Virus record (IMG/VR): IMGVR_UViG_3300032088_000079 | Span: 1 to 24,503 of that record | Strand: one strand, 5' to 3' | Length of the DNA stretch: 24,503 bases | Source: a virus | Shown: piece by piece, positions 4,861-21,155 of the stretch | Position numbering within the stretch: the first letter of the stretch is position 1 | How the letters are laid out: every line of letters begins with the position of its first letter | Notes under the pieces: model-generated | The model's database searches: none | The model's input: the letters and a program-made list of their open reading frames with translations, nothing else | What the model was told of the DNA's origin: nothing | Program-made: the position numbers and the translations under genes

Positions 4861-4868
4861 TATTTATT
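4861..4868 (-). promoter_or_regulatory. Late promoter octamer of the tape-measure gene
   Basis: AATAAATA, 5 bases before the GTG; contains the stop codon of the upstream gp26-like gene. Decides the GTG start. Confidence 0.6.
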
Positions 4869-5601
4869 CGCGGGTCAAGAATCCAGCGTCAAATTCTACA
4901 ACTGTATTATCTTTAAATGTAGCATATTGATTGCTATACTCAGTAACTGAACCGATAAATTCTATAATCTTATTGTTAACTTTAAGAGGTAAATTTTCAA
5001 CTACTCGCTTTTTTTCATACACTGTTAACTCATTTAAGTCAAAATCACTATCATCTCCCTTAATACTATCTAAATACTTAACTATTTCATAAGTAAGCAG
5101 GATATCAACTGATTCTGACTTCTTTTTTTCCTCGTTAAGTTTACTAATATCTAGTAAAGCCTTCTCTGTTATAGTTTTGTCAAGTTTTAAGCTAGGTATT
5201 TTTAAACATAACTCAAAGTCACTAAATTTAATTTTTTTAGTCTGATTTTTAAATTTTGGTAATTTGGTAGGGAGATTATCAAGATTATATGCTATACCAT
5301 CAATAGTAATATCACTGCTAATAGATGCTTTACGAAGTGCTATAAGAATAGCATTCTTATCTTCATATGAAAATTCAATATCTTCTTGACAATTAGTAGT
5401 TATAATTTCATTATAAATAACACCGCACTTTATAGCTCCTACTATACCAGTAAGTGCTGTCCGGATTAAATCTTTCTGTTGACCTACGCTAAATAATTTA
5501 AAAGATACTTCCTTTTGAATAGAAGGTACAAAAATCTCAACAAGCTCAGATGTATTAAGAGAGTCGAGTTTTGATATGAAGGAGTCTAGTTTTTTACCCA
5601 T
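4864..5601 (-). CDS. Baseplate hub subunit or assembly protein, gp26-like
   Basis: 245 residues. The N-terminal half has the look of the T4 gp26-type baseplate family: FVPSIQKEVSFKLFSVGQQK (about 24-43), a helical stretch, a Cys/Ile region and an LRKA segment around 109-112. The C-terminus contains YEKKRVVENLPLKV, then IIEFIGSV, closely paralleled in the next upstream gene, so the two look like paralogues. In T4, gp26 and gp51 help assemble the central hub. Many lysines and asparagines follow the AT-rich base composition. The stop codon lies inside the promoter octamer of the downstream tape-measure gene. Only 12 bases separate it from the upstream gene. A weak octamer (GATATATA) precedes the ATG by 5 bases. 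Confidence 0.55.
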   Translation of the reverse strand: MGKKLDSFISKLDSLNTSELVEIFVPSIQKEVSFKLFSVGQQKDLIRTALTGIVGAIKCGVIYNEIITTNCQEDIEFSYEDKNAILIALRKASISSDITIDGIAYNLDNLPTKLPKFKNQTKKIKFSDFELCLKIPSLKLDKTITEKALLDISKLNEEKKKSESVDILLTYEIVKYLDSIKGDDSDFDLNELTVYEKKRVVENLPLKVNNKIIEFIGSVTEYSNQYATFKDNTVVEFDAGFLTRE

Positions 5602-5613
5602 ATTAATATATAT

Positions 5614-6435
5614 CTACTTCTGCTGTCTTTTCAACTCTTCGTTCTGTTTCTTTATATGCTTATTATGTATATTAAGCATGATTTTTGTCTCCATAGGTGA
5701 CATAGTAGAGAATAAATTAGATCCGTTTAGAATAGTATTGTAAAAAGCGTACATTAATTCATAATAGGATTTTAGATCAATACCGTAGATAGCTGAAATA
5801 AATTCTATAACCCCGTTACTAATAAGATTAAGATTAATTTCTTGTATATTAAGACGCTTGTTTTCACTTAAAAGCGTCATGTTGAAAGCATTACTAGAAA
5901 GATCTGCTAGATATTGTTGTAGCCCATCAAACAAGTTAACCGGTAGTTTATTTAATATATTAATACGATCCTCTGTATTAAGAGAAGCAAAATCTATGAC
6001 TTCATTATCAAATATTATCTCTTTAATTATGTTATTATATAAATCATCTATATCCTTAAAGTATAAAGCAGTTGGAATACCTAACTTAATATCGATATCA
6101 TCATGAGTAATAGTCTTATTAAATATAGAGTAAGATATACTTTCTAACTTCTCTAATACTATGCTCAAACTTACATCAACGTTGCGCTGTTCTTTAGTTG
6201 TAAATGTAAGACTTTCTTCTACAAATACCATTCTCGCATATATAAGCAGGTAAAATCTATCAACAATATCTAAGTCGTCATCTAAAATAATGGTATTAAA
6301 GTATTCACTTAGCCCAAAAAAATCTTTATTCTCGCAAAACTTTATGATAACTAAATACTGCTTATTATTAAGTTCATTGATACGTCTAGACTTACCACTC
6401 GGTAATATCACCTCAACGTTAAAGTTATCACTCAC
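5614..6435 (-). CDS. Baseplate hub assembly protein, gp26/gp51-like
   Basis: 273 residues, GTG start. The N-terminus (VEVILPSGKSRRINELNNKQ, 7-26) followed by YLVIIKF and a helical region with RMVFVEESLTF resembles gp26-type proteins. The C-terminal half (RINILNKLPVNL, then long helices and a Lys/Gln-rich tail) aligns by eye with the neighbouring 245-residue protein and resembles T4 gp51, a hub assembly factor. I infer a gp26/gp51 pair that arose by duplication, as suspected for other T4-like phages. The predicted start has no Shine-Dalgarno sequence; the sequence 5 bases upstream (ACTAAGTT) is only a weak match to the late octamer. A 55-base gap separates it from the upstream tube-like gene. 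Confidence 0.5.
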   Translation of the reverse strand: MSDNFNVEVILPSGKSRRINELNNKQYLVIIKFCENKDFFGLSEYFNTIILDDDLDIVDRFYLLIYARMVFVEESLTFTTKEQRNVDVSLSIVLEKLESISYSIFNKTITHDDIDIKLGIPTALYFKDIDDLYNNIIKEIIFDNEVIDFASLNTEDRINILNKLPVNLFDGLQQYLADLSSNAFNMTLLSENKRLNIQEINLNLISNGVIEFISAIYGIDLKSYYELMYAFYNTILNGSNLFSTMSPMETKIMLNIHNKHIKKQNEELKRQQK

Positions 6436-6490
6436 TTAATAACTTAGTCTGCTACTATAAATCTTCAACCTAATTTTAGTCTATTACTTA

Positions 6491-7225
6491 TTACCTCGAA
6501 GGGTCTACGACGGTGTTGGTGATGTCTCGAACTTGATAGTGAGAAAAAGCAAATGAAATTGTTTTTGTTAGTTCACTCAATGCTAACTCGTTATTATAGC
6601 TTAGTTGACCTCCTTCAATATTAAAAGGAGCACTATCATAAAAAGTATATATCTTTCTAGCGCTATATTCTACTAGCGGTCTATTAAAGTCTTGTGATGA
6701 TTCAAACTTACTACTTTTGTAATATTCATCTGATCTAGTATATAAAACTAAATCAATATAACATTTTATATCATCTTCCTCATCTTCAATAAGACCTTTA
6801 TAACTAGTAGCTACAACCCATGGCTTTAAAAAATAATCCATTAAATCGACATTAGTCTCTAAAAAGGTAAGATCTAGCTTATTTTCAGCTCCGTAGTTAG
6901 CTCTTCTATCTGCAAAGTATCCAGCTCTGAAACCACCAGTTTTGGCTATATTTTCAGTTCCTATTGTTATTTGTTCATTAGGTAGAGAAGCATTCTGCGC
7001 TAATAGTAACCCAAGTTCATTGTGAGAGTAATCATCTATTAAAGATGGCTTTATAGGTAGACTATTACCTTCGGTTGCAGCAATAATATTTCTTACATTA
7101 GAGCCAACATCAGTCATGGAGGCACCGTCTCTACCATACAAATTTACTCCCCATAAAAATTTTAAGGGTAGGTCACTAGCCCATTTTTGTTGTAGGCTAA
7201 GTCTAGGTAGTATAGTTTGAGGCAC
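6491..7225 (-). CDS. Tube-like protein, possible gp54-type tube initiator
   Basis: 244 residues, GTG start. After a leading segment (SDLPLKFLWGVNLYG, 18-32) it shows features of tube-fold proteins: ENIAKTGGFRAGYFADRRAN and KLDLTFLETNVDLMDYFLKP (strand, aspartate, then helix), and a late strand AFSHYQVRD. T4 builds its tube on gp48 and gp54, which share the gp19 fold, so gp54 is the best analogue by position next to gp19. A second gp19-type paralogue is the alternative. The GTG start is supported by the octamer ATTAAATA exactly 5 bases upstream, overlapping the stop of the tube gene. The gene is leftward and probably co-expressed with gp19. Confidence 0.5.
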   Translation of the reverse strand: MPQTILPRLSLQQKWASDLPLKFLWGVNLYGRDGASMTDVGSNVRNIIAATEGNSLPIKPSLIDDYSHNELGLLLAQNASLPNEQITIGTENIAKTGGFRAGYFADRRANYGAENKLDLTFLETNVDLMDYFLKPWVVATSYKGLIEDEEDDIKCYIDLVLYTRSDEYYKSSKFESSQDFNRPLVEYSARKIYTFYDSAPFNIEGGQLSYNNELALSELTKTISFAFSHYQVRDITNTVVDPSR

Positions 7226-7230
7226 TTAAT

Positions 7231-7238
7231 TATTTAAT
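7231..7238 (-). promoter_or_regulatory. Late promoter octamer of the 244-residue tube-like gene
   Basis: ATTAAATA, 5 bases before the GTG, touching the stop codon of gp19. Decides the GTG start. Confidence 0.6.
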
Positions 7239-7777
7239 CACCTAGTCTTATTATAGTAGTGGTAGGCTATAGTAGTTGATATTTCTACAGTCTCACCAGT
7301 ACCATCAGCCATTTTATATTCAATGTCCTCGATGTTGCGTAATGAAGCTCCAACGAGCTTATACTCTGCAATAGGCTCAAGGTCTTTATCAAGTTGTGCT
7401 AACTGAATAAAGAAATCATCATCAGGTGTACCATACTCGCCAGTAGATGTTTGATCGTTAAATAATGCTCTAGAAGCTGCTTCAAAATAGTTTCTAAGGT
7501 CACTATCTGCATCTAAGTAAAAACTAAGACTATAACCATCAGAGTTAGTATACTCAACACCACCAGGAACGTTTAAGTTAAGTCCCATATAAGGTACTGC
7601 TGTGTTCTTAATATTACGCCCAGGTAGGTTAGCAGCTTTAGCATAAACTAACTGAGTATCAGTTAAAGCAGGAACTCCTTGTAACTGCAATTGAGTTACT
7701 CTAAAAAGAAAATCTCTCGAAAAGTCTCTATCCGCTGCAACTCTATAGAAATTTTGAATATTTTGGTTTACGGGCAT
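7238..7777 (-). CDS. 19: Tail tube protein, gp19-like
   Basis: 179 residues, near T4 gp19 (163). Visible tube-fold elements: FLFRVTQLQLQGVP (25-38), the AKAANLPGRN loop, VPYMGLNLNVPGG, then SLSFYLDADSDLRNYFEAAS, where strand, aspartate and helix match the hexameric tube family. The C-terminal strand pair is AEYKLVGASLRNIEDIEYKM and VEISTTIAYHYY. The tube is polymerised on the baseplate inside the sheath and conducts DNA. Position directly after the sheath gene is as in T4. A terminator hairpin separates it from gp18, and it has its own late octamer, TATAAATA, 5 bases before the ATG, the only perfect T4 consensus in the window. That suggests separate and strong expression. Three tube-like proteins occur here; this is the best gp19 candidate. 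Confidence 0.75.
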   Translation of the reverse strand: MPVNQNIQNFYRVAADRDFSRDFLFRVTQLQLQGVPALTDTQLVYAKAANLPGRNIKNTAVPYMGLNLNVPGGVEYTNSDGYSLSFYLDADSDLRNYFEAASRALFNDQTSTGEYGTPDDDFFIQLAQLDKDLEPIAEYKLVGASLRNIEDIEYKMADGTGETVEISTTIAYHYYNKTR

Positions 7778-7782
7778 ACTAA

Positions 7783-7790
7783 TATTTATA
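7783..7790 (-). promoter_or_regulatory. Late promoter octamer of gp19
   Basis: TATAAATA, the exact T4 late consensus, 5 bases before the ATG. With normal T4 geometry (-13 to -6) transcription would begin at the A of ATG. Confidence 0.75.
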
Positions 7791-7808
7791 GCTTGAAAGC
7801 TAATTATA

Positions 7809-7846
7809 TAAAAAAAGAGCTGTGAAATGTTACTTTCACAGCTCTT
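7809..7846 (-). terminator. Rho-independent terminator after gp18
   Basis: A 13-bp perfect stem (7815-7827 with 7834-7846), 6-base loop, and on the minus strand a run of T directly after. It ends sheath transcription before the tube gene promoter. Confidence 0.9.
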
Positions 7847-7864
7847 AAATTAAGTTAATTAATG

Positions 7865-10231
7865 TTAACCGCCGATTAGCTCTTCGAAGTTAGCATCTGT
7901 GCGTGTAGCATAGAAGTTAACTAAGATAAACTCAGCAGTCTTAACTGGCTTAAGGTATATATCAACTACAAGTTCGTTCTGATCAATAACCTCACCAGTG
8001 TTATTTCTCTCATCACAAACAATAAGGTAATCATACAATCCATCATCTGCCTTTACTCTTTCAAAGAATGGTGTTAATGTATTAACAACTCTTGTTCTAG
8101 TAAACAATGTGTTGTTCTCAAAGAGGAAGAACTGCATTGTAGCCTTTGTAATCTTCTCAAGATATAAGAAGGTTCTACGTACATTAATTCTATCGAATGC
8201 ACTTGGCTTCTTAAGCAATGTCTTCTGTCCGAAGAACACGTTACCTTGATCAGAGAAACTAGCTATTGGATTAAGATTAACTGTATAAAGATCATCTCGT
8301 TGACGTTGGTTAGGAGATAATGCAATATCAACGGCATCGGTTATAACACCGCGATTGAATCCCGCTGGCGCGCCCCATGGTCCGATTGCTGCATCTGTAG
8401 AAGCCATTTTAGCTGCTGCAAATCCAGAAGATGGTACGTAGGTGAATAGACCAGAATAGTTGTCATATACTTTCATCCAGTTAGCAAACACTGTTGCGTA
8501 TGATGTATTAGCATTTTCAAACTGATGTCTTAACGCCCAGTAAATATCGGTACTGAAGTTCTTTGACTTATCTGCTTGTACCTTGTTATCCTTACCGGTT
8601 ACAAGTAACTGTCTAATTGGATCAGCAACGAATAGAATATCACCTCTACCACCATCCTTGACTGGACCTGCAAATGTTGCAAACTTATTAAAGATAGTTG
8701 AATAATTGTCTCTAGCATCACTACTAGGAAGATCACTAGATGTTCTTAACTCTTCAATTTTAGCAGTTGTTCTTAAATCATCAAATCCAAGAGCGCTTAA
8801 CGGGGTTTCAGCTGATGTTTGATTATATGTAAATATAGTACCTAAACCAGCTTCTGCAATAATATCGATGTTAAACTTACGATCGTTACGAATACGATCA
8901 AGAGCTCTATCAAGCTTCTGTGGAATATTACCAGCAAGCTTTGTCTCTAAGTTAGTCTCACCATATGCACCTAGTGGAAAGAGTGAGTCAGCTGTAGGTA
9001 ATGAAGAAATACCTTCGATAAACGCTTTTGTAGCTCCAACCCTCGATGGGGATATATTACCATTAACTACATTATCGATTAAGGACTGTGTAAGTACTCT
9101 TATCTTCTTATTAGGGTTACCATCATCTGATAAATTTAACCCAGATATTTGATCTGCTAAGTATGGATTAACTAACATCTCAATATTACGAGAATCTTCT
9201 TCGACAGTTCCAAGTGAGAAGTTTATTGGAGCGCCTCCATTTTCAGAATTAATCTGTCTGTAATGTCCGATAGAACCATTATAACCTTCTTCTAACAAGT
9301 AATCCATCTTATTAGCATCCTTAGAGAACACTGACTGACGTAATTTAAATACACCAATGTTTAATGTATCATCAAACTCCGTTGTAGATGTATCGTAATT
9401 AGTTATACTCTCTTCCATAACTTGTGATATGGAATTTTGAATATTAGAACCTTTTGCAGCATCTACACTAAATTCAAATCTCGATGTTGGTATAGTAGTA
9501 AATGTTTTTCTACCTGTCTTTGCTGCTGATCCTGTTGTAGTTTGTACTGACTGTATCGCATCAAATGCACTTGCAGGGTTAATGTTCGTGTTATCAGATA
9601 TACCTAAATAGTAACCGTTAAATTGACCATCAATAGTTGTTTGAGCTTTGTTAATAACGATTATAGCAGCTCCAGATAAAGCTGGAAGACTACTTAATTG
9701 GTTTGATTTAGAAGCAGATAAATTCCAACCTTCACTAAATGTCTCACCATTAGTAAGACTAATATACTCATCATTAGTTATATCAAATTGAGTTGGTGCA
9801 CCTAAAACCCAAGTAGAAGATAATGTAGTAAAGTCATTAGTAGGCGCGCCGCTCAACGTACCGCTCAACGGGTGACCGTTCGAATAAACTCCTGTCCTTT
9901 CAAAACCAGAAGCTGGGTAAGCAAGAACAGAGATCTTAGATCCAAATCCCTGACCAGCGTCTGCACCATAAGGCAATCTATTTACCATTAATTTACCGGT
10001 TGAATTTAAAGCAGCACGAGCAGAATGATAGAAGTATCTTTCAGCCGGCGTTCTTGGTTGCCCGTAAATTTGTTCAAACTCAGTGATGTTTCCTACGCCC
10101 ACCACTTCATCAGTGGGACCTTCGTTAGCGAAACCTGCCATATATGTTGTTGTACCCTGAGAAACTGTTCTAAGTGATAGATCAGCTTCACGAATCTCAA
10201 CCCCAGGAGATTGTATTGTCCTATTAGCCAT
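7865..10231 (-). CDS. 18: Contractile tail sheath protein, gp18-like
   Basis: 788 residues, longer than T4 gp18 (659). The N-terminus (TIQSPGVEIREADLS, 5-19), followed by TTTYMAGFANEGPTDE and FEQIYGQPRTP, is the classic sheath start. The C-terminal 170 residues are the conserved domain: INVRRTFLYLEKITKATMQF, FFERVKADDGLYDYLIVCDE, and a final strand rich in aromatic residues. The middle section (about 100-400) is variable and probably forms surface domains that account for the extra length. The sheath contracts to drive the tube through the envelope. The gene is leftward, preceded by AATAAATA 5 bases upstream of the ATG, and followed by a strong rho-independent hairpin, so it is probably transcribed as its own unit. 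Confidence 0.95.
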   Translation of the reverse strand: MANRTIQSPGVEIREADLSLRTVSQGTTTYMAGFANEGPTDEVVGVGNITEFEQIYGQPRTPAERYFYHSARAALNSTGKLMVNRLPYGADAGQGFGSKISVLAYPASGFERTGVYSNGHPLSGTLSGAPTNDFTTLSSTWVLGAPTQFDITNDEYISLTNGETFSEGWNLSASKSNQLSSLPALSGAAIIVINKAQTTIDGQFNGYYLGISDNTNINPASAFDAIQSVQTTTGSAAKTGRKTFTTIPTSRFEFSVDAAKGSNIQNSISQVMEESITNYDTSTTEFDDTLNIGVFKLRQSVFSKDANKMDYLLEEGYNGSIGHYRQINSENGGAPINFSLGTVEEDSRNIEMLVNPYLADQISGLNLSDDGNPNKKIRVLTQSLIDNVVNGNISPSRVGATKAFIEGISSLPTADSLFPLGAYGETNLETKLAGNIPQKLDRALDRIRNDRKFNIDIIAEAGLGTIFTYNQTSAETPLSALGFDDLRTTAKIEELRTSSDLPSSDARDNYSTIFNKFATFAGPVKDGGRGDILFVADPIRQLLVTGKDNKVQADKSKNFSTDIYWALRHQFENANTSYATVFANWMKVYDNYSGLFTYVPSSGFAAAKMASTDAAIGPWGAPAGFNRGVITDAVDIALSPNQRQRDDLYTVNLNPIASFSDQGNVFFGQKTLLKKPSAFDRINVRRTFLYLEKITKATMQFFLFENNTLFTRTRVVNTLTPFFERVKADDGLYDYLIVCDERNNTGEVIDQNELVVDIYLKPVKTAEFILVNFYATRTDANFEELIGG

Positions 10232-10236
10232 AAAAT

Positions 10237-10244
10237 TATTTATT
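10237..10244 (-). promoter_or_regulatory. Late promoter octamer of gp18
   Basis: AATAAATA, 5 bases before the ATG, no Shine-Dalgarno sequence. Confidence 0.65.
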
Positions 10245-10267
10245 CTTTTTGAATAAATATTTTCTTA

Positions 10268-10849
10268 TTAATTCAATAATTTAGTGTGTAACTGTGAGTA
10301 AACAAACGTAAAGGATGATTCTATTTCCTCAGACGTTCTATAGTTATATTCTAAATTACCTAAAGTTACAGGAAAAGCTTTGGTATAAGTAAACTCTATG
10401 CGTTTATTTTCGTATTCATCCAAACCATATAAAGTCATATCAGTCTGGTAATTATTAAATTGATTTTCAGGATCTAAATCAGCATCATCATATATACCAG
10501 TCTTTTGATCATGCATCAAATTTAACCATTTGTATATAACCCAGTAGTTGTTGAACTCATTGTCAGCTGTAAAGTTAACCGTCACAGGAGGGTAAGCCTC
10601 TCTTGCATGAGCAGATTGATATAAATTACTACCTCCATATGGCACCTGGATTGATGGGACAGTAAGTTCTGGTACAACTGCACCGTAGACAGACAATTGA
10701 AGTTTGTCTTCAATTACATTATTACTATTACGCGCACTATTTTCTCGTACATTTATTTCTCTTAATGCAGGAGGTAAAGAAAAAATAAGTACAAACTTAT
10801 CAAGCCGGCTCTTGTTTAAGATAGATTGATTATTTTGGTTTACTGCCAT
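10268..10849 (-). CDS. Tail-tube-like protein between terminase and sheath
   Basis: 193 residues. It shares the opening pattern M-x-V-N-Q-N with the gp19-like protein. It has a tube-type core: SVYGAVVPELTVPSIQVPYG (53-72), PPVTVNFTADNEFNNYWVIY (87-106) and a late strand ESSFTFVYSQ. The Trp/Tyr-rich helix and the NYQTDMTLYG strand fit the gp19 superfamily. T4 has no tube paralogue between genes 17 and 18. Possible roles are a tail terminator or completion protein, a second tube subunit, or a baseplate tube component. AATAAATA lies 6 bases before the ATG and is superimposed on the terminase stop codon. The fold call is moderate and the exact role is unknown. Confidence 0.55.
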   Translation of the reverse strand: MAVNQNNQSILNKSRLDKFVLIFSLPPALREINVRENSARNSNNVIEDKLQLSVYGAVVPELTVPSIQVPYGGSNLYQSAHAREAYPPVTVNFTADNEFNNYWVIYKWLNLMHDQKTGIYDDADLDPENQFNNYQTDMTLYGLDEYENKRIEFTYTKAFPVTLGNLEYNYRTSEEIESSFTFVYSQLHTKLLN

Positions 10850-10855
10850 CGTAAA

Positions 10856-10863
10856 TATTTATT
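10856..10863 (-). promoter_or_regulatory. Late promoter octamer of the 193-residue tube-like gene
   Basis: AATAAATA, 6 bases before the ATG; the TAA inside is the terminase stop codon. Confidence 0.6.
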
Positions 10864-12553
10864 CTAGAGGTTGAAAGCCATGCATTTCCAATTCATCCAT
10901 TTCTTCTTCTGCTTGATTATCACCCATACCAAACACAATAGGGGGTAACATATTATTAGCACCGACCACTTCATTGTCAGCATATAGTGAGGTAGCGTCT
11001 TCAAAGAACTTTAATCCAAAGTCCATGGCCTCAATAACCATAGGCTTACCTCTATCATCTAATTCAAGTATCTCAAAAAAGCGTTCAGTAATTTCTTTCT
11101 CTAATATAAAGAGAGAATAAAGAGTAGCCATGACCCTATCATCATGATGACTTTGTCTAGCTTTCCATGTACCGTTAGGATAACGTACGAATGATCGCAA
11201 CTCCTTTAATGTATCTTCATCTCGAATTGTAACCGAGCGCGCTTCATTAATATAATATCTCATATTAAGAACACCTTTGTACTTAGTATTAGTATGCGCG
11301 ATCATCCCTTGCATTATGTTTCGTCTGTGACCTGCTTTGTTCCCGTAGGATACTATCTTTTCATAACCAAAATCGTTAGCAAGCCTATCAACGATTTGAG
11401 CACCAGGACCGTTACGCTCAATAAGAGCTAAAGGTGACCCGTAGTTTCTTAATATAGAATAGACTTTGTTAGTATAGTCCGCGGGAGGTATTTTGTTATT
11501 AGTATAGCATGCTACTTGTCGTATATCTTTAAGATCAGTTATATCAAATATCTGTACTACAGACGAATCAACTCCAACGCCTTCTGCTGTATCCACTCCT
11601 GCAGCGTATACTCTTGACGGGTCTGCTTCTTCCCAAATTTTATAATGTCCATCATCTAAAACTATTTTAGGTTCGCATAACTGTGATTGCATCTTCTCAA
11701 ATAAATCATCATCGATAGAAGATTCACCTGAGTTAATAAACTGGCAGCAAAACTCTTGAAGCCACGCATCATGAGAGCCAATAGCTTGTCTAGTATTGTT
11801 AGCCCATATCTCATCTCTACCTGGAACTTCATCCCATAATATCTTATCATACGCCCAACCATTCTCACCAGTCTCAGCTCCAGTATATAACTTATAAAAC
11901 AAATTATCAGTACCGTTAGCAGTGGAACAAACAAATACTTTAGACTTTTTAGAAGAGGTAATAACAGGAAAGACAGACTTCCAAAACTCTTCTACCAAGT
12001 GAGGTTCAATAAATGCCATCTCATCAATAACTAGACAGTTAACAGATTGACCACGAGCAGCTGTACCAGTAGTAGTTGTAATACCTATACGTGATCCATT
12101 CTCCAACGTCATAGATGTCTTAGCATATTCTTTAACCGGTGACTTCAACCAGTTAGGTAATTCTTCATAAGCCATCCTTACACGTTGAAAGATCTCAATC
12201 GCGGTAGCCTCTTTGTTAGCTACTAACAATATACGTTGATCTTTATTAAAGATAGCTTGCCAAAGAATATAGATCGTCATCATTGTCGATTTACCAATCT
12301 GTCTAGAGGCTAGTTGTATAAAGAAACGATTGTCTCTCATCTTACGTAGAGCTCTTTTTTGCGCTTTATAAAGTTGGATCTTTTCTCTACCTCTATCCAG
12401 GTTAACAATATAAAAGAAATTTTCAGCAAAGTATAAAATGTTTTTATGCGCTTTCGTTAAAGCTTTTACTTGTTCTTTTGTGTATTCACCCTTCCAATTT
12501 ACGTTGGGTAAATTTTTATTACCCATATAGTACATATTATCTTGCTGAGCCAT
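10859..12553 (-). CDS. 17: Terminase large subunit, gp17-like DNA packaging motor
   Basis: 564 residues (T4 gp17 is 610). ATPase domain: Walker A SRQIGKST at 83-90, Walker B LVIDE at 174-178 with catalytic Glu178, and coupling motif STANGTDN at 210-217. RNase H-like nuclease domain: Asp321 in AAGVDTAEG, Glu379 in LALIERNGPG, and Asp471/472 in HHDDRV. All key residues of a working motor are present. The protein cuts concatemeric DNA and pumps it into the prohead with ATP. A short acidic tail ends the protein. The gene is the first of the leftward block, divergent from the acidic repeat protein. AATAAATA lies 6 bases upstream of the ATG; there is no Shine-Dalgarno sequence. Confidence 0.95.
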   Translation of the reverse strand: MAQQDNMYYMGNKNLPNVNWKGEYTKEQVKALTKAHKNILYFAENFFYIVNLDRGREKIQLYKAQKRALRKMRDNRFFIQLASRQIGKSTMMTIYILWQAIFNKDQRILLVANKEATAIEIFQRVRMAYEELPNWLKSPVKEYAKTSMTLENGSRIGITTTTGTAARGQSVNCLVIDEMAFIEPHLVEEFWKSVFPVITSSKKSKVFVCSTANGTDNLFYKLYTGAETGENGWAYDKILWDEVPGRDEIWANNTRQAIGSHDAWLQEFCCQFINSGESSIDDDLFEKMQSQLCEPKIVLDDGHYKIWEEADPSRVYAAGVDTAEGVGVDSSVVQIFDITDLKDIRQVACYTNNKIPPADYTNKVYSILRNYGSPLALIERNGPGAQIVDRLANDFGYEKIVSYGNKAGHRRNIMQGMIAHTNTKYKGVLNMRYYINEARSVTIRDEDTLKELRSFVRYPNGTWKARQSHHDDRVMATLYSLFILEKEITERFFEILELDDRGKPMVIEAMDFGLKFFEDATSLYADNEVVGANNMLPPIVFGMGDNQAEEEMDELEMHGFQPLE

Positions 12554-12559
12554 TGAAAA

Positions 12560-12567
12560 TATTTATT
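12560..12567 (-). promoter_or_regulatory. Late promoter octamer of gp17
   Basis: AATAAATA, 6 bases before the ATG. Only six bases from the divergent octamer at 12574. Confidence 0.6.
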
Positions 12568-12573: not shown

Positions 12574-12581
12574 CATAAATA
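12574..12581 (+). promoter_or_regulatory. Late promoter octamer of the acidic gene
   Basis: CATAAATA, 5 bases before the ATG, divergent from the gp17 octamer. Confidence 0.65.
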
Positions 12582-12586
12582 AATAT

Positions 12587-13672
12587 ATGGCTAAAAAGAA
12601 AGACCTTCAAAGTTTAGGTGAAGCATATGGTGCTATTTTAGATAAAGTAGTAGTCAGTGAGAATGTTCCAGCAGGAACTATTGGTGAGGCTCCTCTCGAA
12701 AAGGGTGGTCCAACCGAGCGAGGTGGATTTAAAGAGTCCGATGTTGACATTAATAAAGTAGGCGATAAAGAAAACGCTTATAATATAAAAGGCTTATCAT
12801 ACGGCGATGGAAATGATCCTGGTACAAATTGCGATCGTCCTCTACCAACTTCAGATGATATAGCAGCGCGTTATGGCATCGTTGGAAAAGAAGAAGACGA
12901 AGAGGATGAGACAGAAGAAGATGATGTCAATAAAGTCGAAGCAGATATAGCTGAAGATGAAGAAAGTAAAGCTAAAAAAGATTACGATGGAGATGGAAAG
13001 GTTGAATCTAGTACTGCAGAGTATATGGGGTCAAGAGATAAAGCTATTAAGAAAGCGAGAGGTAAGAAACCAGAGGAAGAGGAAGAAGATACTGTAGATG
13101 AAGATGAGCTTCCTGTAGATCCTGAAGAAAGTGAAGAAAGTTCAGAAGAAATAGAGAAAATTGCTGAGGAAGGACTAAATATTTTTATGAAGCGTAAATC
13201 AGTTTTTGATAAACTCTATGATAAGGTCATGGTCAATGAAGACTTTGGCGGTGGTGAACATGAAGAAGCAGATCTCGACGCACTCGGTCTTGATGATGCA
13301 GAGGCCGATGCCGAAGCAGGTGATGAAGTGACCGTTACTTTAGACAGAGAAATGGCGCAGCATCTATGTGACGTTCTTAAAGCTGCATGTGGAGATGAAG
13401 ATGAAGTCGAAGCAGAAGTCGAACTCGATGATGAAGATGAGCAATTCCCTGCCCAATTCGAAGAAGATGAAGAAGGAGAGCCTACTGCAATGAATACCCA
13501 CTATAACGACGGTAAGCAGAACAAAGTAGGTAGTCTTAAAAATGCTGGTGGAGCTGCTAGTACTGGTGCAACTGGAAAAGTTGATGCTGGTTCTAACATG
13601 AATACTCACTATAACGACGGAAAGCAGAACAAAGTTGGCAATCTTAAGCCAGGTTCAAGTGCTTTTGAATAA
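12587..13672 (+). CDS. Acidic, repeat-bearing putative structural or core protein
   Basis: 361 residues, not recognised as a named family. The N-terminus (about 1-70) looks folded (LQSLGEAYGAILDKVVV). Very acidic Glu/Asp tracts follow at about 101-127, 162-192 and 270-300. Between them DYDGDGKVES (132-141) resembles the calcium loop of EF-hand or dockerin motifs, though the twelfth position is Thr rather than Glu. The C-terminus carries two near-identical 17-residue repeats starting MNTHYNDGKQNKVG at residues 302 and 338, joined by a Gly/Ala linker. High acidity and position opposite terminase suggest a head-core, scaffold or accessory virion protein; this is inference. CATAAATA lies 5 bases before the ATG and a rho-independent terminator follows the stop. 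Confidence 0.6.
   Translation: MAKKKDLQSLGEAYGAILDKVVVSENVPAGTIGEAPLEKGGPTERGGFKESDVDINKVGDKENAYNIKGLSYGDGNDPGTNCDRPLPTSDDIAARYGIVGKEEDEEDETEEDDVNKVEADIAEDEESKAKKDYDGDGKVESSTAEYMGSRDKAIKKARGKKPEEEEEDTVDEDELPVDPEESEESSEEIEKIAEEGLNIFMKRKSVFDKLYDKVMVNEDFGGGEHEEADLDALGLDDAEADAEAGDEVTVTLDREMAQHLCDVLKAACGDEDEVEAEVELDDEDEQFPAQFEEDEEGEPTAMNTHYNDGKQNKVGSLKNAGGAASTGATGKVDAGSNMNTHYNDGKQNKVGNLKPGSSAFE
13490..13648 (+). repeat. Two 51-base direct repeats in the acidic gene
   Basis: Copies at 13490-13540 and 13598-13648, 108 bases apart, encode MNTHYNDGKQNKVG plus three residues. They differ at a few bases, mostly third codon positions, so the protein sequence is being kept. Confidence 0.85.
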
Positions 13673-13696
13673 TTAAAACTAAAACGCAATAATATT

Positions 13697-13727: not shown

Positions 13728-13735
13728 ATTAAGTA
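13728..13735 (+). promoter_or_regulatory. Late-type octamer (one base off) of the 113-residue gene
   Basis: ATTAAGTA, 5 bases before the ATG; G replaces A in the core. Confidence 0.4.
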
Positions 13736-13740
13736 TATAT

Positions 13741-14082
13741 ATGAAGACCTTTAAAGAGTACTATCAAGGAGATAAGTACATGCATGCTGCAATGAGGACT
13801 GGTAAAAATTTATACGGTGGTACAGATAGAAAGCATCAAAATAATGTTCGAAAGGATTATAATTCTAAATGCCCACACGTTAGAAATTTAATAAAAGGTG
13901 GAGCACAACAAATTAAGCTGATGGGTCAACCTTTAATGGGTACACTTAATGTTTATGGCTTAGATTACGAGCCTGGAGTAACAAAAGGTCTTGGTAACTC
14001 AGGTGCAGAGGTAAAAATGTTTGAAGATGAGGAAGGTAATCAGTGTGGGATGCTTATGAAGAAGCCGATGAAGACTAAATAA
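13741..14082 (+). CDS. Small basic protein with capsid-targeting-like N-terminus
   Basis: 113 residues, unknown family. The N-terminus MKTFKEYYQGD resembles the capsid-targeting leader of T4 internal proteins (which begin MKTYQEF), and the 121-residue protein at 17735 begins in a similar way. The rest is Lys/Asn/Gly-rich with HVRNLIKGG and a C-terminal KKPMKTK. If the leader is real, the protein would be packed in the prohead, and a gp21-type protease site should follow; none is obvious. The gene is preceded by the terminator of the acidic gene and by ATTAAGTA 5 bases upstream, one base off the late core. It runs into the gp14-like gene with a 4-base gap, so both are probably co-transcribed. 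Confidence 0.6.
   Translation: MKTFKEYYQGDKYMHAAMRTGKNLYGGTDRKHQNNVRKDYNSKCPHVRNLIKGGAQQIKLMGQPLMGTLNVYGLDYEPGVTKGLGNSGAEVKMFEDEEGNQCGMLMKKPMKTK
14074..14081 (+). promoter_or_regulatory. Late promoter octamer of the gp14-like gene
   Basis: ACTAAATA, 5 bases before the ATG, overlapping the stop codon of the previous gene. Confidence 0.6.
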
Positions 14083-14086
14083 CTAT

Positions 14087-14863
14087 ATGGGTTGTAATCC
14101 AAATACTATTAACTGCACACCGGAAGAAGTTTTAGCAGCTACAGCTATTCCATCTTGCGGTAAGTTTGTAAATGCTACGAACATGCAAGCAGAGCAGTTA
14201 GTATTTGATCAAGCTTACAACGACCTAATTAACAACTTCGGTATTGATGTTAAATACTATTTTAACCCGTTTAATTTATCAGCAGCTAATTTGTTGTATG
14301 GCGAGGAGCCAACTAAAACGTTCCAAGGTCCTCTCTCTCTTCAAATGTATGTCGAGCTTAACAATGAGGCTATTTCATTGCAAAGTTTCGGGTTTGATGC
14401 TGCTGATGAGTTTACCGGTTATTTACATATAGACACCTTTTATAACGCTGCTTCAGCAAAGTTTGATTATGCTAGTGTTGGTCAGTCTATAGAGCCTAAG
14501 TCTGGTGATCTTGTAGTTATAGATGCATTAAGCTGTATGCGAACAAACGGTAGAGGAGCTAAGGTATATGAGATTACAGAGCGAATGGATCAAGATGTTT
14601 CAGCAATGAACCCTCTACTTGGAACGTATGTATATAGAGTGAGAGCTAAACGATACGAATATTCATTCGAGCCTGGTGCGCCTATTGAGCCAGTTAATGA
14701 TCAGGTATTTGAGAACTCGTTTAGTGGTGTTCTATCTACTAACATACCTGGAGATAGTGTTTCTGCTGATAAGTCCTTTGATTGGAATATTAACGAGGAC
14801 TCGAAAGATAACGTGTATGATATGGATGTCAATGATAATGATATCTATGGCAATTATTACTAA
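14087..14863 (+). CDS. 14: Neck protein, gp14-like
   Basis: 258 residues, nearly the length of T4 gp14 (256). Matching features: FGIDVKYYFNPFNLSAANLL (51-70) followed by YGEEPT, a beta-rich middle with EPKSGDLVVIDA (136-147), a strand ending VYEITERMDQDV, and YVYRVRAKRYEYSFEPG, where T4-like gp14 has the same strand plus Tyr-Ser pattern. The C-terminal 40 residues are Asp/Asn-rich. gp14 joins gp13 to form the neck that seals the packed head and binds the tail. ACTAAATA lies 5 bases before the ATG and overlaps the stop of the previous gene. The stop codon abuts the run of A that forms the T-tract of the leftward terminator. Confidence 0.75.
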   Translation: MGCNPNTINCTPEEVLAATAIPSCGKFVNATNMQAEQLVFDQAYNDLINNFGIDVKYYFNPFNLSAANLLYGEEPTKTFQGPLSLQMYVELNNEAISLQSFGFDAADEFTGYLHIDTFYNAASAKFDYASVGQSIEPKSGDLVVIDALSCMRTNGRGAKVYEITERMDQDVSAMNPLLGTYVYRVRAKRYEYSFEPGAPIEPVNDQVFENSFSGVLSTNIPGDSVSADKSFDWNINEDSKDNVYDMDVNDNDIYGNYY

Positions 14864-14891: not shown

Positions 14892-14911
14892 CTCTTATAA
14901 CACTAACGAAG

Positions 14912-15877: not shown

Positions 15878-15928
15878 GTCTAATTAACTATACTATAATT
15901 TACTTACAATATAGCAATATTCAAGAGG

Positions 15929-16729
15929 CTAAGTTACAATTTTTAAATCAGTACCGGATCTATATACTGCTCCTGTGGGTAATCCTGAACTAGATGTAGG
16001 AATATCAGTTATTACAAGCCGCTGCGTAAAAGCCGTATCATCTAGACACGCATTAATACCACTACCAGCTAATATTGCTGCAGCAGAAACTGTGTTAGAG
16101 ATAGTATTACATGTGCCAGCTAAGATAGAACTATTGTCACCGCATGCACTATTACAACATCCGTTTACTACAGCGCTATAGCAAGCGAATGTTTTATTGT
16201 TATTACCACCTCCAACAAATGAACCTGTACCACACGCACAACCATAAAAGCCTCCTACTATAGAAGAGTAACTACAACCACCAGCTACTGTAGTCTGATA
16301 ACCACTCTTAATATTGCTACTAGAAACAGTACCGCAAGCATTTATATCTTGAAACCCAGGCGAGCAAGTAGGATGTAACCCTGTCACTTCTATAGTAGCT
16401 ACAGTTCCATTTACATTAGTAGATCTAATTGTACCTTGAGATGCACCTGATGAAATACAATTTAACACGTAACATCCATTTGCCGTGCACCAAGCTGCTG
16501 CATTACTCCAACTCGTACAATTTGTCGATACAGTTTGTCTAGTACTTTCCCATCCACCTGAAAGAGTAGAGAGCTCAGTTCTTGCTAGCATTCCTCCTAC
16601 CCCTGTTAAAGGCACTGCAAAAGATGAAAGTGGTGTTTGACTAGTAATAGAGTCTTGCACAACTGCTACTAGCTCGTTACCAGTAAGAGGAGAGGAAAAT
16701 GTTGGTAATTCTGAAATCTTTACACCCAT
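15929..16729 (-). CDS. Cysteine-rich fibre-like protein with beta-roll repeats
   Basis: 266 residues. The N-terminus MGVKISELPTFSSPLTGNEL with VVQDSITSQTPLSSF is typical of baseplate-attached fibre leaders in marine phages. The C-terminus TGAVYRSGTDLKIVT is a common fibre ending. Between residues about 140 and 225 lie ~15-residue repeats of the type SSIVGGFYG, GSFVGGGNNN, SAVVNG and SSILAGTCN, resembling the left-handed beta-roll of YadA heads. Fifteen cysteines occur, mostly at repeat turns, where related fibres usually show Ala or Ser. ACTAAATA lies 5 bases upstream of the ATG. It is divergent from the nuclease gene and followed by the glycosyltransferase. A virion fibre that binds the host or carries sugars is likely. 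Confidence 0.65.
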   Translation of the reverse strand: MGVKISELPTFSSPLTGNELVAVVQDSITSQTPLSSFAVPLTGVGGMLARTELSTLSGGWESTRQTVSTNCTSWSNAAAWCTANGCYVLNCISSGASQGTIRSTNVNGTVATIEVTGLHPTCSPGFQDINACGTVSSSNIKSGYQTTVAGGCSYSSIVGGFYGCACGTGSFVGGGNNNKTFACYSAVVNGCCNSACGDNSSILAGTCNTISNTVSAAAILAGSGINACLDDTAFTQRLVITDIPTSSSGLPTGAVYRSGTDLKIVT

Positions 16730-16734
16730 ACCAT

Positions 16735-16742
16735 TATTTAGT
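16735..16742 (-). promoter_or_regulatory. Late promoter octamer of the fibre-like gene
   Basis: ACTAAATA, 5 bases before the ATG. Confidence 0.6.
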
Positions 16743-16762
16743 TGATAGTCGTGAGTTTTATA

Positions 16763-16770
16763 TTAAAATA
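16763..16770 (+). promoter_or_regulatory. Weak late-type octamer of the nuclease gene
   Basis: TTAAAATA, 5 bases before the ATG at 16776; six of eight positions match the T4 consensus. Confidence 0.35.
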
Positions 16771-16775
16771 TGTTA

Positions 16776-17483: not shown

Positions 17484-17490
17484 CTACAAC

Positions 17491-17498
17491 AATAAATA
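17491..17498 (+). promoter_or_regulatory. Late-type octamer of the 72-residue gene
   Basis: AATAAATA, 9 bases before the ATG, predicting a leader of about four bases. Confidence 0.45.
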
Positions 17499-17507
17499 GC
17501 TTTAAAT

Positions 17508-17726
17508 ATGAAAAAGTCTAAGCTTATTAATAATTTAGATAAATCAATTGATGCTTTATATGACAGTCTATATGCAGTAAGAGATGCATTAGAGAAAGTT
17601 GAAGATGAAGAGATGGATTTTCTAGCTAATAGTTTCGTAGATCAAATAGAACTTAGCGTCGTTGAGGGTGAGTATAGCTATGAAAGAATTAAAGAGTATA
17701 TTGAGAAACTTTATGTGGAAGAGTAA
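17508..17726 (+). CDS. Small acidic helical protein, unknown
   Basis: 72 residues, not recognised. It is mostly predicted helix with Leu/Ile heptad-like spacing (LINNLDKSIDALYDSLYAV) and an acidic middle (KVEDEEMDFL), so a short coiled-coil or helical bundle is likely. AATAAATA lies 9 bases before the ATG, which would leave a leader of about four bases. The stop TAA is inside the promoter octamer of the next gene. Confidence 0.5.
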   Translation: MKKSKLINNLDKSIDALYDSLYAVRDALEKVEDEEMDFLANSFVDQIELSVVEGEYSYERIKEYIEKLYVEE

Positions 17727-17729
17727 ATA
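17722..17729 (+). promoter_or_regulatory. Late promoter octamer of the basic 121-residue gene
   Basis: AGTAAATA, 5 bases before the GTG; contains the stop codon of the previous gene. Confidence 0.55.
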
Positions 17730-17734
17730 TTTAC

Positions 17735-18100
17735 GTGAAAGATTTTAAGTCATTCTATCTTGAGAACTTTGCTGACGGTAAGAAGAAGGGTAAGAGTCGC
17801 CCTGGTCGCGTAAAGAAGTCAGGGGCTAGTTGTAATGGTTCAGTGACAGAACTTCGTAAGAGAGCAAAAAACGCTAGCGGGGAGAAGGCAAAGATGTATC
17901 ACTGGTGTGCAAACATGAAGGGTGGTAAGAGAAAGAAGTCTGAGTCTGAAGAGGTACCTGAAGAAGATGCTGAAAAGAAAGTATCTAAGACTCGTGCTAA
18001 ATGTCAAGCAAAAGCTAAGCGTAAGTATGATGTATGGCCTTCTGCTTATGCATCAGGTTATGTTCAGAAATGTGTAAACAGAGGTGGTAACATAAAATGA
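17735..18100 (+). CDS. Lysine-rich cysteine-bearing protein, possible packaged DNA-binding protein
   Basis: 121 residues, GTG start. The N-terminus MKDFKSFYLENF resembles T4 capsid-targeting leaders. Two basic modules follow: ASCNGSVTELRKRAKNASGE with KMYHWCANMKGG (31-64), and, after an acidic linker (69-80), KCQAKAKRKYDVWPSAYASG with KCVNRGG (89-118). Cys33, Cys58, Cys90 and Cys113 could form disulphides or bind metal. I recall similar modules in marine phage and large-virus proteins of unknown function. High Lys content suggests nucleic-acid binding. GTG is chosen because AGTAAATA lies exactly 5 bases upstream. The stop overlaps the start of the next basic gene (ATGA), so the two are co-translated. 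Confidence 0.65.
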   Translation: MKDFKSFYLENFADGKKKGKSRPGRVKKSGASCNGSVTELRKRAKNASGEKAKMYHWCANMKGGKRKKSESEEVPEEDAEKKVSKTRAKCQAKAKRKYDVWPSAYASGYVQKCVNRGGNIK

Positions 18101-18348
18101 CACAAAAAGAATTATTAGAGAACTTACGAGACTGGTTTAAGACTCGTACAGATAAGAAGACTGGTAAAAAGTTCAAAGGATGGGTCAACTGTAAAACAGG
18201 TGGGCCTTGTGGTAGAAAGAAAGCAGGTAAGAAAGGCTCTTCATACCCTGCTTGTAGACCAACACACGCTGCGTGTAAGAAGATAAAGAACAAAAAATAT
18301 AAAAAGCGCGGTCCGAAAAGACAGCAATGGAAGAAGAAAAGCAGTTGA
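18097..18348 (+). CDS. Small lysine-rich cysteine protein, unknown
   Basis: 83 residues, very basic. A helix (QKELLENLRDWFKT) is followed by KGWVNCKTGGPCGRK, SSYPACRPTHAAC and a Lys/Arg tail. Four cysteines (32, 38, 53, 60) with Gly and Pro suggest a small metal or disulphide knuckle. It overlaps the preceding gene by ATGA and is likely its partner. Together they look like histone-like or internal head proteins; this is inference from composition and coupling only. A host-type promoter begins directly after its end, so it probably closes the operon. Confidence 0.6.
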   Translation: MTQKELLENLRDWFKTRTDKKTGKKFKGWVNCKTGGPCGRKKAGKKGSSYPACRPTHAACKKIKNKKYKKRGPKRQQWKKKSS

Positions 18349-18373
18349 TTATACTACCGTTCCATGTTAATAT
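18345..18373 (+). promoter_or_regulatory. Host-type promoter of the sugar cassette
   Basis: TTGATT, 17-base spacer, TAATAT; the -10 box ends 6 bases before the ATG. Confidence 0.55.
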
Positions 18374-18379
18374 TTATAT

Positions 18380-19225
18380 ATGAATATTTGCATCTTGGGT
18401 GGCGGTTACGTAGGAACTCATTTAAGTAATAGTTTAAAGAGTGATCACAACGTTACAGTCTTACGTCGAGCTGATCTAGATTACAACAAGCAGTATAAGT
18501 TACTAGCCTTCTTATCCAAAAGTAATATTGACTATGTTATTAACTGCTCAGGATTTACAGGTCGTCCTAATGTTGATCAAGCAGAAGATAAAAAGAAAGA
18601 GTGTTGGGATCTAAATGTACTTGGCCCTGTAAATGTAAACAGAGTCTGTAAAGCAGCACAAATACCGTACATTCATATTTCATCTGGTTGTATCTTTACA
18701 GGGTATGAAAAGGAATGGTTAGAAGAAGATGAACCTAACTATGGATTGTTCGATGTCGAGTCATCTTTCTACTCTAAGTCAAAGCATGCTTATGAATTAG
18801 CGGCTGGTGATTACGGCTTAACTATACGAATCCGGATGCCGTTTGATAATGATATTACATCGGAAAGATCTGTCTTGTCGAAGCTTCGTAAGTATGATAA
18901 CTTAGTCAATTTTAAGAACTCTAAAACGTATATACCTGATTTATGTAGATTTATTAAAAAGTATATTGAGGAAGAAAGAAAGGATAATGATGTACTTCAT
19001 CTCGTTAATCCAGATGCTCTAGATACGGCTGGTGTTATAGCGTTTATGAAAGCAGCAGATAAAGGTAATCCTGATTGGAAGTTTGTAGACTTCGCTGCTC
19101 TTAATACTAAAGCCAATAGATCTAATTGTACATTAGATGTCACAAAGCTTAAAGAAAAGTATGATTATGAACCAATGACTGAGTCAGAAGCACTCGCGCT
19201 AATATATGAAAAGTCCTTTGTATAA
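18380..19225 (+). CDS. NAD(P)-dependent sugar reductase, RmlD-like
   Basis: 281 residues, Rossmann fold of the short-chain dehydrogenase type. The nucleotide-binding loop LGGGYVGTHL (6-15) is at the N-terminus. VINCSGFTGRPNVDQAE (53-69) resembles the AAyTaVDkAE motif of RmlD. Catalytic residues are Ser101/Ser102 in HISSGCIFTGYE and Tyr131/Lys135 in FYSKSKHAYE. RmlD enzymes reduce dTDP-4-dehydro sugars, and a similar 4-keto product could come from the RmlB-like enzyme two genes on. It is first gene of a rightward cassette whose members overlap (20 and 8 bases). A -35/-10 promoter sits right upstream with its -10 box six bases before the ATG. The substrate is unknown. Confidence 0.8.
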   Translation: MNICILGGGYVGTHLSNSLKSDHNVTVLRRADLDYNKQYKLLAFLSKSNIDYVINCSGFTGRPNVDQAEDKKKECWDLNVLGPVNVNRVCKAAQIPYIHISSGCIFTGYEKEWLEEDEPNYGLFDVESSFYSKSKHAYELAAGDYGLTIRIRMPFDNDITSERSVLSKLRKYDNLVNFKNSKTYIPDLCRFIKKYIEEERKDNDVLHLVNPDALDTAGVIAFMKAADKGNPDWKFVDFAALNTKANRSNCTLDVTKLKEKYDYEPMTESEALALIYEKSFV

Positions 19226-19685
19226 TAAGATTAAGAATAATTCCCCTGGTAAAATAATTACAAGTTTTACTGCAGGTAACTTCGATTTACTCCATCCAGG
19301 TTATATCTACACCTTTGAAGAAGCTAAAAGGCATAGTGATAAGTTCATTGTATTCTTACAACGGGATCCTTCATCGACTCGATATACAAAATATAAACCA
19401 GTCATACCTTACTATGAGAGGTATAAGACATTAATGGCTATCAAGTATGTTGATGAGGTATATATGTATCAAACAGAAGATGAACTTGTAGACTTAATTA
19501 AGTTCTTTAAACCAGACGTTCGTATATTAGGAGAAGATTATATTGGTAAACCTTTTACAGGTGACGATCTTCCCCCAGAGGTAGTGTATACAACCAGATC
19601 ACATGAATGGTCTACGACAAAGATAAAGGATCTTATTACCTTGCAAACTATCAAACAGAATCCAAAATTATTAGAGAATGAGTAA
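19206..19685 (+). CDS. Cytidylyltransferase-like nucleotidyltransferase with variant HxGH
   Basis: 159 residues of the TagD/HldE-type nucleotidyltransferase fold. FTAGNFDLLHPGYIYTFEEA (21-40) corresponds to the HxGH signature, but the second His is Tyr33. The second signature, RSHEWSTTKIKDL (131-143), matches the ISTT-K-I type and is intact. KPDVRILGEDYIGKP (102-116) is the typical middle strand. Normal members transfer CMP or AMP to a phosphorylated alcohol or sugar. Loss of the second His may weaken catalysis or change specificity. It overlaps both neighbours, so it is translationally coupled in the sugar cassette. No separate promoter is seen. Confidence 0.75.
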   Translation: MKSPLYNKIKNNSPGKIITSFTAGNFDLLHPGYIYTFEEAKRHSDKFIVFLQRDPSSTRYTKYKPVIPYYERYKTLMAIKYVDEVYMYQTEDELVDLIKFFKPDVRILGEDYIGKPFTGDDLPPEVVYTTRSHEWSTTKIKDLITLQTIKQNPKLLENE

Positions 19686-20667
19686 GACGTATTTAGTTAC
19701 TGGAGGATGCGGCTTTATTGGCTCGTATGTTATAGAAGAGCTCTTAAGAGATAAAGACGCTGATATAAAGGTTATATGTCTCGATAAGATGGGAGTAGGG
19801 TCCGATCTTAAGCATATACCATTGAACGATAATAGATTAAAGCATGTAGTGCGAGATATATCAAGACCTGGGTTTAAAGATTTTTTAGGGAAAGTAGATT
19901 ATATTTTACATTTAGCGGCTGAATCTCATGTAGATAGATCCATTACTAACCCATTAGCGTTTATTGATAGTAATGTTGTAGGTACAGCGAATGTACTTGA
20001 ATTATGCAAGCAGGACGGTGCTAGAATGGTCCACGTCTCAACTGATGAAGTGTACGGGCATCTGCAGCTACATGAAGAGCCCTTTACTGAAGAGCATCCT
20101 CTTAAGCCTCGATCACCTTACTCCGCATCTAAAGCTAGCTCTGATCTACTAGTACAGTCATACGTTACTACTTACGGGCTTAATGCCTCTATAACAAGAT
20201 GCTGTAATAACTATGGACCTAGACAACATAACGAAAAACTGATACCAACAGTTATAAGATCTTTAGCTCAGGGTCAATACATTCCTGTTTATGGTAAAGG
20301 AGATAACATTCGCGAATGGATACACGCACGTGATCACGCTAAAGCCATCATAGAAGTACTTCATAAGGAAGATGCTGCAGAACTTTATAACATACCGGGT
20401 GATGCAGAGTTTACTAATTTAGAGTTAATTGATCAGATTATTGAAACTGTAGTAGACAAAGCGCCTCAGTATAAAAGACAAGAGTATATTAAGTTTGTAG
20501 AAGATAGGGCAGGGCATGATTTCAAGTATGCTATATCTACAAAGCATAATTTAGAAGCTGTAGCTAATCAGCAAAAGTTTGATTTATCTGAGACGGTTGA
20601 TTACTACTTAAACAAATATTTCAAGTACGAAGATGGCATGCCTAAGTGGTTTAGAATAGATACTTAA
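19678..20667 (+). CDS. rmlB: dTDP-glucose 4,6-dehydratase-like enzyme, RmlB family
   Basis: 329 residues. NAD-binding loop VTGGCGFIG (7-15), AAESHVDRS (80-88), catalytic STDEVYG (121-127, Asp123/Glu124) and YSASK (148-152), NNYGPRQ (177-183) and the C-terminal DRAGHDFKYAI (276-286) all match RmlB. The usual DRPGHD reads DRAGHD here. The enzyme converts a nucleoside-diphospho-glucose to a 4-keto-6-deoxy sugar, feeding rhamnose-type or amino-deoxy sugars. As last gene of the cassette it ends convergently with the leftward gene beyond, sharing 17 bases at the 3' ends. All catalytic residues are present, so activity is likely; the exact sugar is unknown. Confidence 0.9.
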   Translation: MSKTYLVTGGCGFIGSYVIEELLRDKDADIKVICLDKMGVGSDLKHIPLNDNRLKHVVRDISRPGFKDFLGKVDYILHLAAESHVDRSITNPLAFIDSNVVGTANVLELCKQDGARMVHVSTDEVYGHLQLHEEPFTEEHPLKPRSPYSASKASSDLLVQSYVTTYGLNASITRCCNNYGPRQHNEKLIPTVIRSLAQGQYIPVYGKGDNIREWIHARDHAKAIIEVLHKEDAAELYNIPGDAEFTNLELIDQIIETVVDKAPQYKRQEYIKFVEDRAGHDFKYAISTKHNLEAVANQQKFDLSETVDYYLNKYFKYEDGMPKWFRIDT

Positions 20668-21142
20668 GAATTAATTGATCATCTGAAAGAGCCTCTTCCT
20701 CATTATCATCTGTTTCAGTTGAATCATCTAAACCCTCTTCATACTCTTCATAGTAAGAATATATGTCATCAGCATCTGCTTCGTAACTAACAGCTGTCGT
20801 TCCTGTTGATATATGAACTACTTCATATTTTTCTCTTATATCTGCAAGGATTAACTTCTTTAAAAGTTTAGCTTCAGTATCTGTTTCTGCTCGTTTTAAA
20901 AAGCTCTTTACTTCATTGCTAGTAAACTTACCTTTAAGGTCAAGAATAGGATCATCAAATAGACCCCATACGTGTATAGAAAGATACTTTCTCGTAATAC
21001 CTGCACAATCTCTAATAACATAATATGCAGCTTTCTTTTTTATCTCGACACCAGTATCAGGCTTATCAGCTGCACGAGCTGCAGGTCCATAGAGCTTCGC
21101 GATCCGCTCAGTTGAGTTTTCTAGTATAACTTCTTCGAACAT
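20651..21142 (-). CDS. Acidic-tail protein, unknown
   Basis: 163 residues, not recognised. Residues 1-100 look folded (RIAKLYGPAARAADKPDTGV, then KYLSIHVWGLFDDP). The last ~40 residues are rich in Asp, Glu and Tyr and end LILKYLF. ACTAAATA lies exactly 5 bases before the ATG, the late-type arrangement seen for tail genes, so late expression is likely. It stands alone on the minus strand between rightward genes and overlaps the end of the dehydratase gene by 17 bases. Confidence 0.55.
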   Translation of the reverse strand: MFEEVILENSTERIAKLYGPAARAADKPDTGVEIKKKAAYYVIRDCAGITRKYLSIHVWGLFDDPILDLKGKFTSNEVKSFLKRAETDTEAKLLKKLILADIREKYEVVHISTGTTAVSYEADADDIYSYYEEYEEGLDDSTETDDNEEEALSDDQLILKYLF

Positions 21143-21147
21143 ATATT

Positions 21148-21155
21148 TATTTAGT
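21148..21155 (-). promoter_or_regulatory. Late promoter octamer of the acidic-tail gene
   Basis: ACTAAATA, 5 bases before the ATG. Confidence 0.6.

Follow-up and report, generated by a model that had tools for sequence, protein, structure and literature searches.

Late-promoter octamers placed 5-6 bases before start codons point to leaderless late mRNAs in an uncultured branch of T4-like viruses

The window analysed here is a complete IMG/VR record of 24,503 bases with 30 genes, all of them mechanical open reading frame calls. Its recognised products, among them the gp17 terminase, the gp18 tail sheath, a head-closure protein and a baseplate wedge protein, mark its origin as a divergent T4-like myovirus. 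Two tail-tube-family genes (7238-7777 and 10268-10849, both phrog_45) lie on either side of the sheath gene. A search of 50,697 phage records returned no close isolate, the top terminase match being 37.5% identical, and relatives of the phage are many in IMG/VR; the branch that carries the layout described below is a widespread group of uncultured T4-like viruses.

Ahead of 11 of the 30 genes stands an octamer with the core TAAATA, which ends 5 bases (nine genes) or 6 bases (gp17 and the second tail-tube-family gene) before the start codon, distances referred to here as gap 5 and gap 6 (Table 1). A sequence-only reading of the window had named these spacings, and all 11 proved exact; its description of the first octamer letter as T, A or C is also borne out at the sites in the window. 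It had further claimed that these genes lack a Shine-Dalgarno (SD) sequence and that three GTG starts obey the same spacing. We find an SD-like tetramer at −20 to −5 in none of the 11 octamer genes, and the three GTG genes all have gap 5. The gp18 layout is kept in 56 distinct homologues, and the promoter of the acidic-protein gene is divergent from that of gp17. Two further genes carry a degenerate octamer in the window, and TAAATA at gap 5 or 6 is found in 31 homologues of one (4864-5601) and 17 homologues of the other (13741-14082). The TAA of the octamer before the tape-measure-like gene doubles as the stop codon of gene 4864-5601.

Table 1. Promoter-like elements and the genes they precede (window coordinates)
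Element	Position	Strand	Placement
AATAAATA late octamer	4861..4868	-	gap 5 to GTG of 3257-4855 (tape-measure-like)
GATATATA degenerate octamer, one mismatch	5607..5614	-	gap 5 to ATG of 4864-5601
ATTAAATA late octamer	7231..7238	-	gap 5 to GTG of 6491-7225
TATAAATA late octamer	7783..7790	-	gap 5 to ATG of 7238-7777 (tail tube, phrog_45)
AATAAATA late octamer	10237..10244	-	gap 5 to ATG of 7865-10231 (tail sheath gp18)
AATAAATA late octamer	10856..10863	-	gap 6 to ATG of 10268-10849 (second tail-tube-family gene)
AATAAATA late octamer	12560..12567	-	gap 6 to ATG of 10859-12553 (terminase large subunit gp17)
CATAAATA late octamer	12574..12581	+	gap 5 to ATG of 12587-13672 (acidic protein)
ATTAAGTA degenerate octamer (TAAGTA, one mismatch)	13728..13735	+	gap 5 to ATG of 13741-14082
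ACTAAATA late octamer	14074..14081	+	gap 5 to ATG of 14087-14863 (gp14-like head closure)
ACTAAATA late octamer	16735..16742	-	gap 5 to ATG of 15929-16729 (fibre-like)
AGTAAATA late octamer	17722..17729	+	gap 5 to GTG of 17735-18100
ACTAAATA late octamer	21148..21155	-	gap 5 to ATG of 20651-21142
TATAAT, candidate leaderless early (sigma-70-type) promoter	21676..21681	+	gap 6 to ATG of 21688-21873

Against the 11 genes observed, 1000 dinucleotide shuffles of the 60-nt upstream regions gave a mean of 0.18 and a maximum of 3, and shuffling the last 20 nt alone gave a mean of 0.33 and a maximum of 5. TAAATA is not over-represented across the window (53 sites, with 52.8 expected from shuffles); its position relative to starts alone is non-random. 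The comparison of spacing with shuffled sequence had been proposed as a check on the original claim; the window passes it, and so do relatives under a control of anagram hexamers, which peak solely where they overlap TAAATA or its near variants. When 1145 distinct starts from 152 IMG/VR records were pooled (related loci, so that the counts are not independent), gap 5 accounted for 324 and gap 6 for 92, with at most 24 at every other gap. The gap-5 peak is still present in relatives whose sheath identity is just 38-45%. Longest-ORF calling is biased towards gap 6, because the TAA of the motif then forms an in-frame stop; at gap 5 this TAA falls out of frame, and the main peak thus did not arise in this manner. 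Gap 9, which is biased in the same way as gap 6, yields 24 cases against 92, and we therefore reject the in-frame stop as the cause of the layout, since it accounts for part of gap 6 only.

Which genes carry the octamer indicates what it does. Among near-complete relatives, 40 of 69 structural-gene homologues have TAAATA at gap 5 or 6, as against none of 32 homologues of replication and recombination genes and gp55 (P = 1.4e-9). In the large relatives, the octamer genes are those for sheath, tubes, gp21, gp13-15-like proteins and other structural products, and the motif is absent at these gaps before gp41, gp43, gp44, gp46, gp47, UvsX, UvsW and gp55. A gp55-like late sigma factor is encoded by all five leaderless relatives of at least 100 kb (contigs of 108-202 kb), and gp55 does not occur on the window contig itself. 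Upstream of −15, a base profile drawn from 418 gap-5 sites contains no strongly conserved block that would represent a −35 element, and Pfam models for gp33 and gp45 gave no match in the relatives, being equally silent in the controls. In its core TAAATA, its lack of a −35 partner, its late structural genes, its gp55 homologue and its gp17-gp18-gp19 neighbourhood, the system resembles the late promoters of T4 and the cyanophages (TATAAATA, NATAAATA). Given the structural-only placement and the gp55 of the relatives, the octamers fit gp55-type (T4-type) late promoters rather than a translation signal, and on these grounds the earlier identification of the octamer as a late promoter is supported.

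The rule is not universal. Exact TAAATA at gap 5 or 6 is missing from 29 of the 69 structural homologues, and in four relatives (G001, G003, G004 and G008) the gene for gp23, the major capsid protein, has no octamer and seems to keep a long structured leader. This leader, of about 80 bases with small hairpins and a shared AGGT-containing element, is perhaps a regulated leader RNA. Two further observations concern other genes of these relatives: an ORF of 4204 residues in G001 (124996-137610) has a late octamer at gap 6, and gp17 of G003 (6997-11482, locus L196) is divided between two overlapping ORFs of 565 and 947 aa, which suggests an intein or intron insertion.

The T4 late octamer occupies −13 to −6 (PMC1524935). 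With the same geometry, a gap of 5 makes the first base of the start codon +1, and at gap 6 transcription would begin one base earlier. Three features of the sequences agree with such a placement. Pooled octamer genes (n=544) start with ATG in 454 cases, GTG in 90 and TTG in none; it is the zero itself that counts, as TTG is inflated by start miscalls in the comparison class of genes without an octamer. At gap-5 sites, base −1 is a pyrimidine in 90% (T 79%, C 11%), against 57% in motif-less genes. Reference phages, for their part, have a purine as sixth base after the octamer in 71% of cases. The proposal that the late mRNAs would be leaderless, with their 5′ end at the start codon, or nearly so, is in our view well supported by this analysis. 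T4 itself is different, as had been claimed: its motif lies 14-39 bases before starts (peak at 27-28, cluster at 24-28) and SD sequences are present, in 64% of its genes. S-PM2 and S-TIM4 also differ, with the motif some 12-45 bases before starts and with SD.

SD-like tetramers precede 8-12% of genes in five relatives, compared with 9-14% in a control window, and 0-5% of the octamer genes of the clade; the share is 50% in HTVC008M and 23% in S-PM2. Promoter-less genes overlap or abut the gene upstream in 226 of 371 cases, as against 1 of 98 octamer genes, which suggests leaderless first genes with coupled followers.

Among genes that have no octamer, G001, G004 and G008 show as their strongest positional signal a TATAAT that ends 5-7 bases ahead of the start, accompanied by TTGA(a/t) about 27 bases before it. 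TATAAT at gaps of 5-7 is found before 43 of 643 genes, compared with 0-4 per position beyond gap 12, and the window holds a single case of this early type. With such a spacing, early transcription appears to be leaderless too. In G002 (L174-L180, ~36-137 kb), AAACACTA stands ahead of about 40 genes, most of them small, and is followed a few bases on by a TATAAT-like box some 6 bases before the ATG; judged from sequence, this arrangement is a candidate for an unusual early or middle promoter type.

The mechanism that we propose is as follows. RNA polymerase with the phage late sigma factor would melt the TAAATA element, and the fixed distance from element to active site would make transcription begin, at gap 5, with the A or G that opens the start codon and, at gap 6, either with it or one base earlier. 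Late mRNAs would then begin with AUG or GUG, with neither a 5′ leader nor an SD site, and be translated by direct recognition of the 5′-terminal start codon. Most promoter-less genes, which overlap or abut the gene before, would probably be translated by coupling, and early genes would share the layout with TATAAT as the −10 element. We consider this explanation as a whole, from gp55 late promoters at start codons and leaderless late mRNAs to coupled followers and a like arrangement of early TATAAT, to be highly probable; within it, we infer the actual 5′ ends, leaderless translation and limited reliance of the host on SD.

Several other explanations need to be weighed. Chance alignment in AT-rich intergenic DNA gains what plausibility it has from a GC content of 36%, at which TAAATA is frequent, yet the shuffles, the anagram hexamers and the lack of the layout in reference phages of similar GC (T4, HTVC008M) have already refuted it, and its probability is negligible. 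Alternatively, TAAATA might be a translation-initiation signal that takes the place of SD in an SD-poor host, with transcription coming from far upstream. In its favour, SD signal is lacking in the clade, and some hosts, such as Bacteroidota, rely on upstream signals of another kind (PMC10783764). Nevertheless, all 32 replication, recombination and gp55 homologues also need to be translated and lack the motif, as do most coupled genes; the motif is identical to the gp55 octamer, and sister lineages have it upstream of SD leaders. We regard a translation signal as very unlikely.

It might also be argued that the late promoters are real but that the start codons, which are predictions, are misassigned, so that translation begins downstream of genuine leaders. 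The next in-frame ATG, however, is a median of 65 codons downstream (at least 20 codons in 84%), and homologues of a gene vary between gap 5 and gap 6, and between ATG and GTG, at one and the same place; the starts are thus not misplaced. Homologous proteins align from residue 1 (gp18 and others), and a genome without SD offers no SD logic for a downstream start. Such misassignment is extremely improbable. The remaining possibility is that late promoters do abut the genes but that most protein comes from longer read-through transcripts, the AU-rich junction acting as a weak non-SD start and leaderless RNAs being a minority. Read-through mRNAs must exist, given that for 75 of 98 same-strand octamer genes the preceding gene ends 4-30 nt away. 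Their predominance would nevertheless leave the zero TTG and the pyrimidine at −1 unexplained, and read-through has no upstream transcript to draw on at divergent first genes such as 10859 and 12587; we think it unlikely that read-through is the main source of protein.

In a tree of gp18, the layout falls in one subclade (support 92), in which all 38 rows have gap 5 or 6, mostly with little SD. This confinement to one subclade and the shared layout of early genes both take the leaderless reading beyond the sequence-only reading. Outside the subclade are L065, L066 and L151, with SD at 30-78%. These, with L259-L265 and the contigs G016 and G017, are SD-using sisters: they are nearest in the gp18 tree and have the same octamer, and G016 and G017 (236 kb and 111 kb) both encode gp55. 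The sister fragments differ from the clade in that SD is mostly at 30-80% and octamers lie at leader distances; across the genomes of G016 and G017, 46-47% of genes have SD, and the octamers are likewise found over a range of leader distances. About ten sites in the SD-using G016 are also at gap 5, which means that the clade is not defined by the layout alone; G016 is perhaps an intermediate state. The gp17 tree nests the sister lines differently (support 85-93), so that the trees would accommodate either one gain or a gain with reversal.

The clade would be expected to infect an SD-poor host. Ribosomes of Bacteroidota ignore SD and use upstream adenines instead (PMC10783764), but we reject promoters of the Bacteroidota type (TAnnTTTG), which occur as 4-10 scattered sites per large relative and 2 in the window, at no fixed distance to starts. 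A gp17 profile search of GTDB genomes gave one match, contig L207 of a Verrucomicrobia MAG. Its first 3 kb are related phage at GC 0.4 and the remainder has a GC of ~0.6, so that L207 may be chimeric, misassembled or misbinned. The MAG that carries it is SD-poor (5%, against 21% in the control) and has no TATAAT near starts; we do not count it as evidence for the host.

Far-T4 viruses (Rhodothermus phage RM378 and Lake Pavin contigs) are likewise an uncultivated aquatic T4-like lineage outside the T4 and cyanophage groups, and their relatives have been linked to SD-poor Bacteroidota (PMC7198788, PMC13037479). Identity with Far-T4 by way of RM378 is not upheld: the gp17 and gp23 trees place RM378, a long branch, with Flavobacterium phage immuto outside the clade, and RM378 has no TAAATA gap-5 peak. 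In the literature that we searched, cyanophage transcriptomes in subscription journals excepted, no paper describes leaderless late mRNAs for T4-like phages; the AR9 paper remarks in passing that phage transcripts are often leaderless. In the Pelagibacter phage HTVC008M (L152), which lies outside the clade and uses SD, TAAATA is at gap 5 in 2 of 46 genes, scattered.

Leaderless mRNAs in bacteria are usually seen as a minor, poorly translated class. The layout described here resembles theirs in its −10-type element 5-7 bases before AUG or GUG, its lack of SD and its purine as first base, but differs in that a lytic myovirus uses it for a late sigma-factor regulon and for early genes. If it is true that a lytic phage makes abundant tail proteins from leaderless mRNAs, then strong translation of such mRNAs during infection must follow. 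We think it somewhat more probable than its opposite that this whole T4-like branch rebuilt its entire transcription programme after the loss of SD, leaving most first genes leaderless, with sigma-70-type early promoters, AAACACTA-TATAAT early or middle promoters in the G002/G003 branch and gp55 late promoters, probably as an adaptation to hosts whose ribosomes ignore SD. The SD-using sisters provide a contrast by which the switch from leadered to leaderless is open to direct test. The layout also provides a strong rule, based on fixed spacing, by which starts and late genes can be called across a large uncultured group, and a clue to the hosts of the clade.
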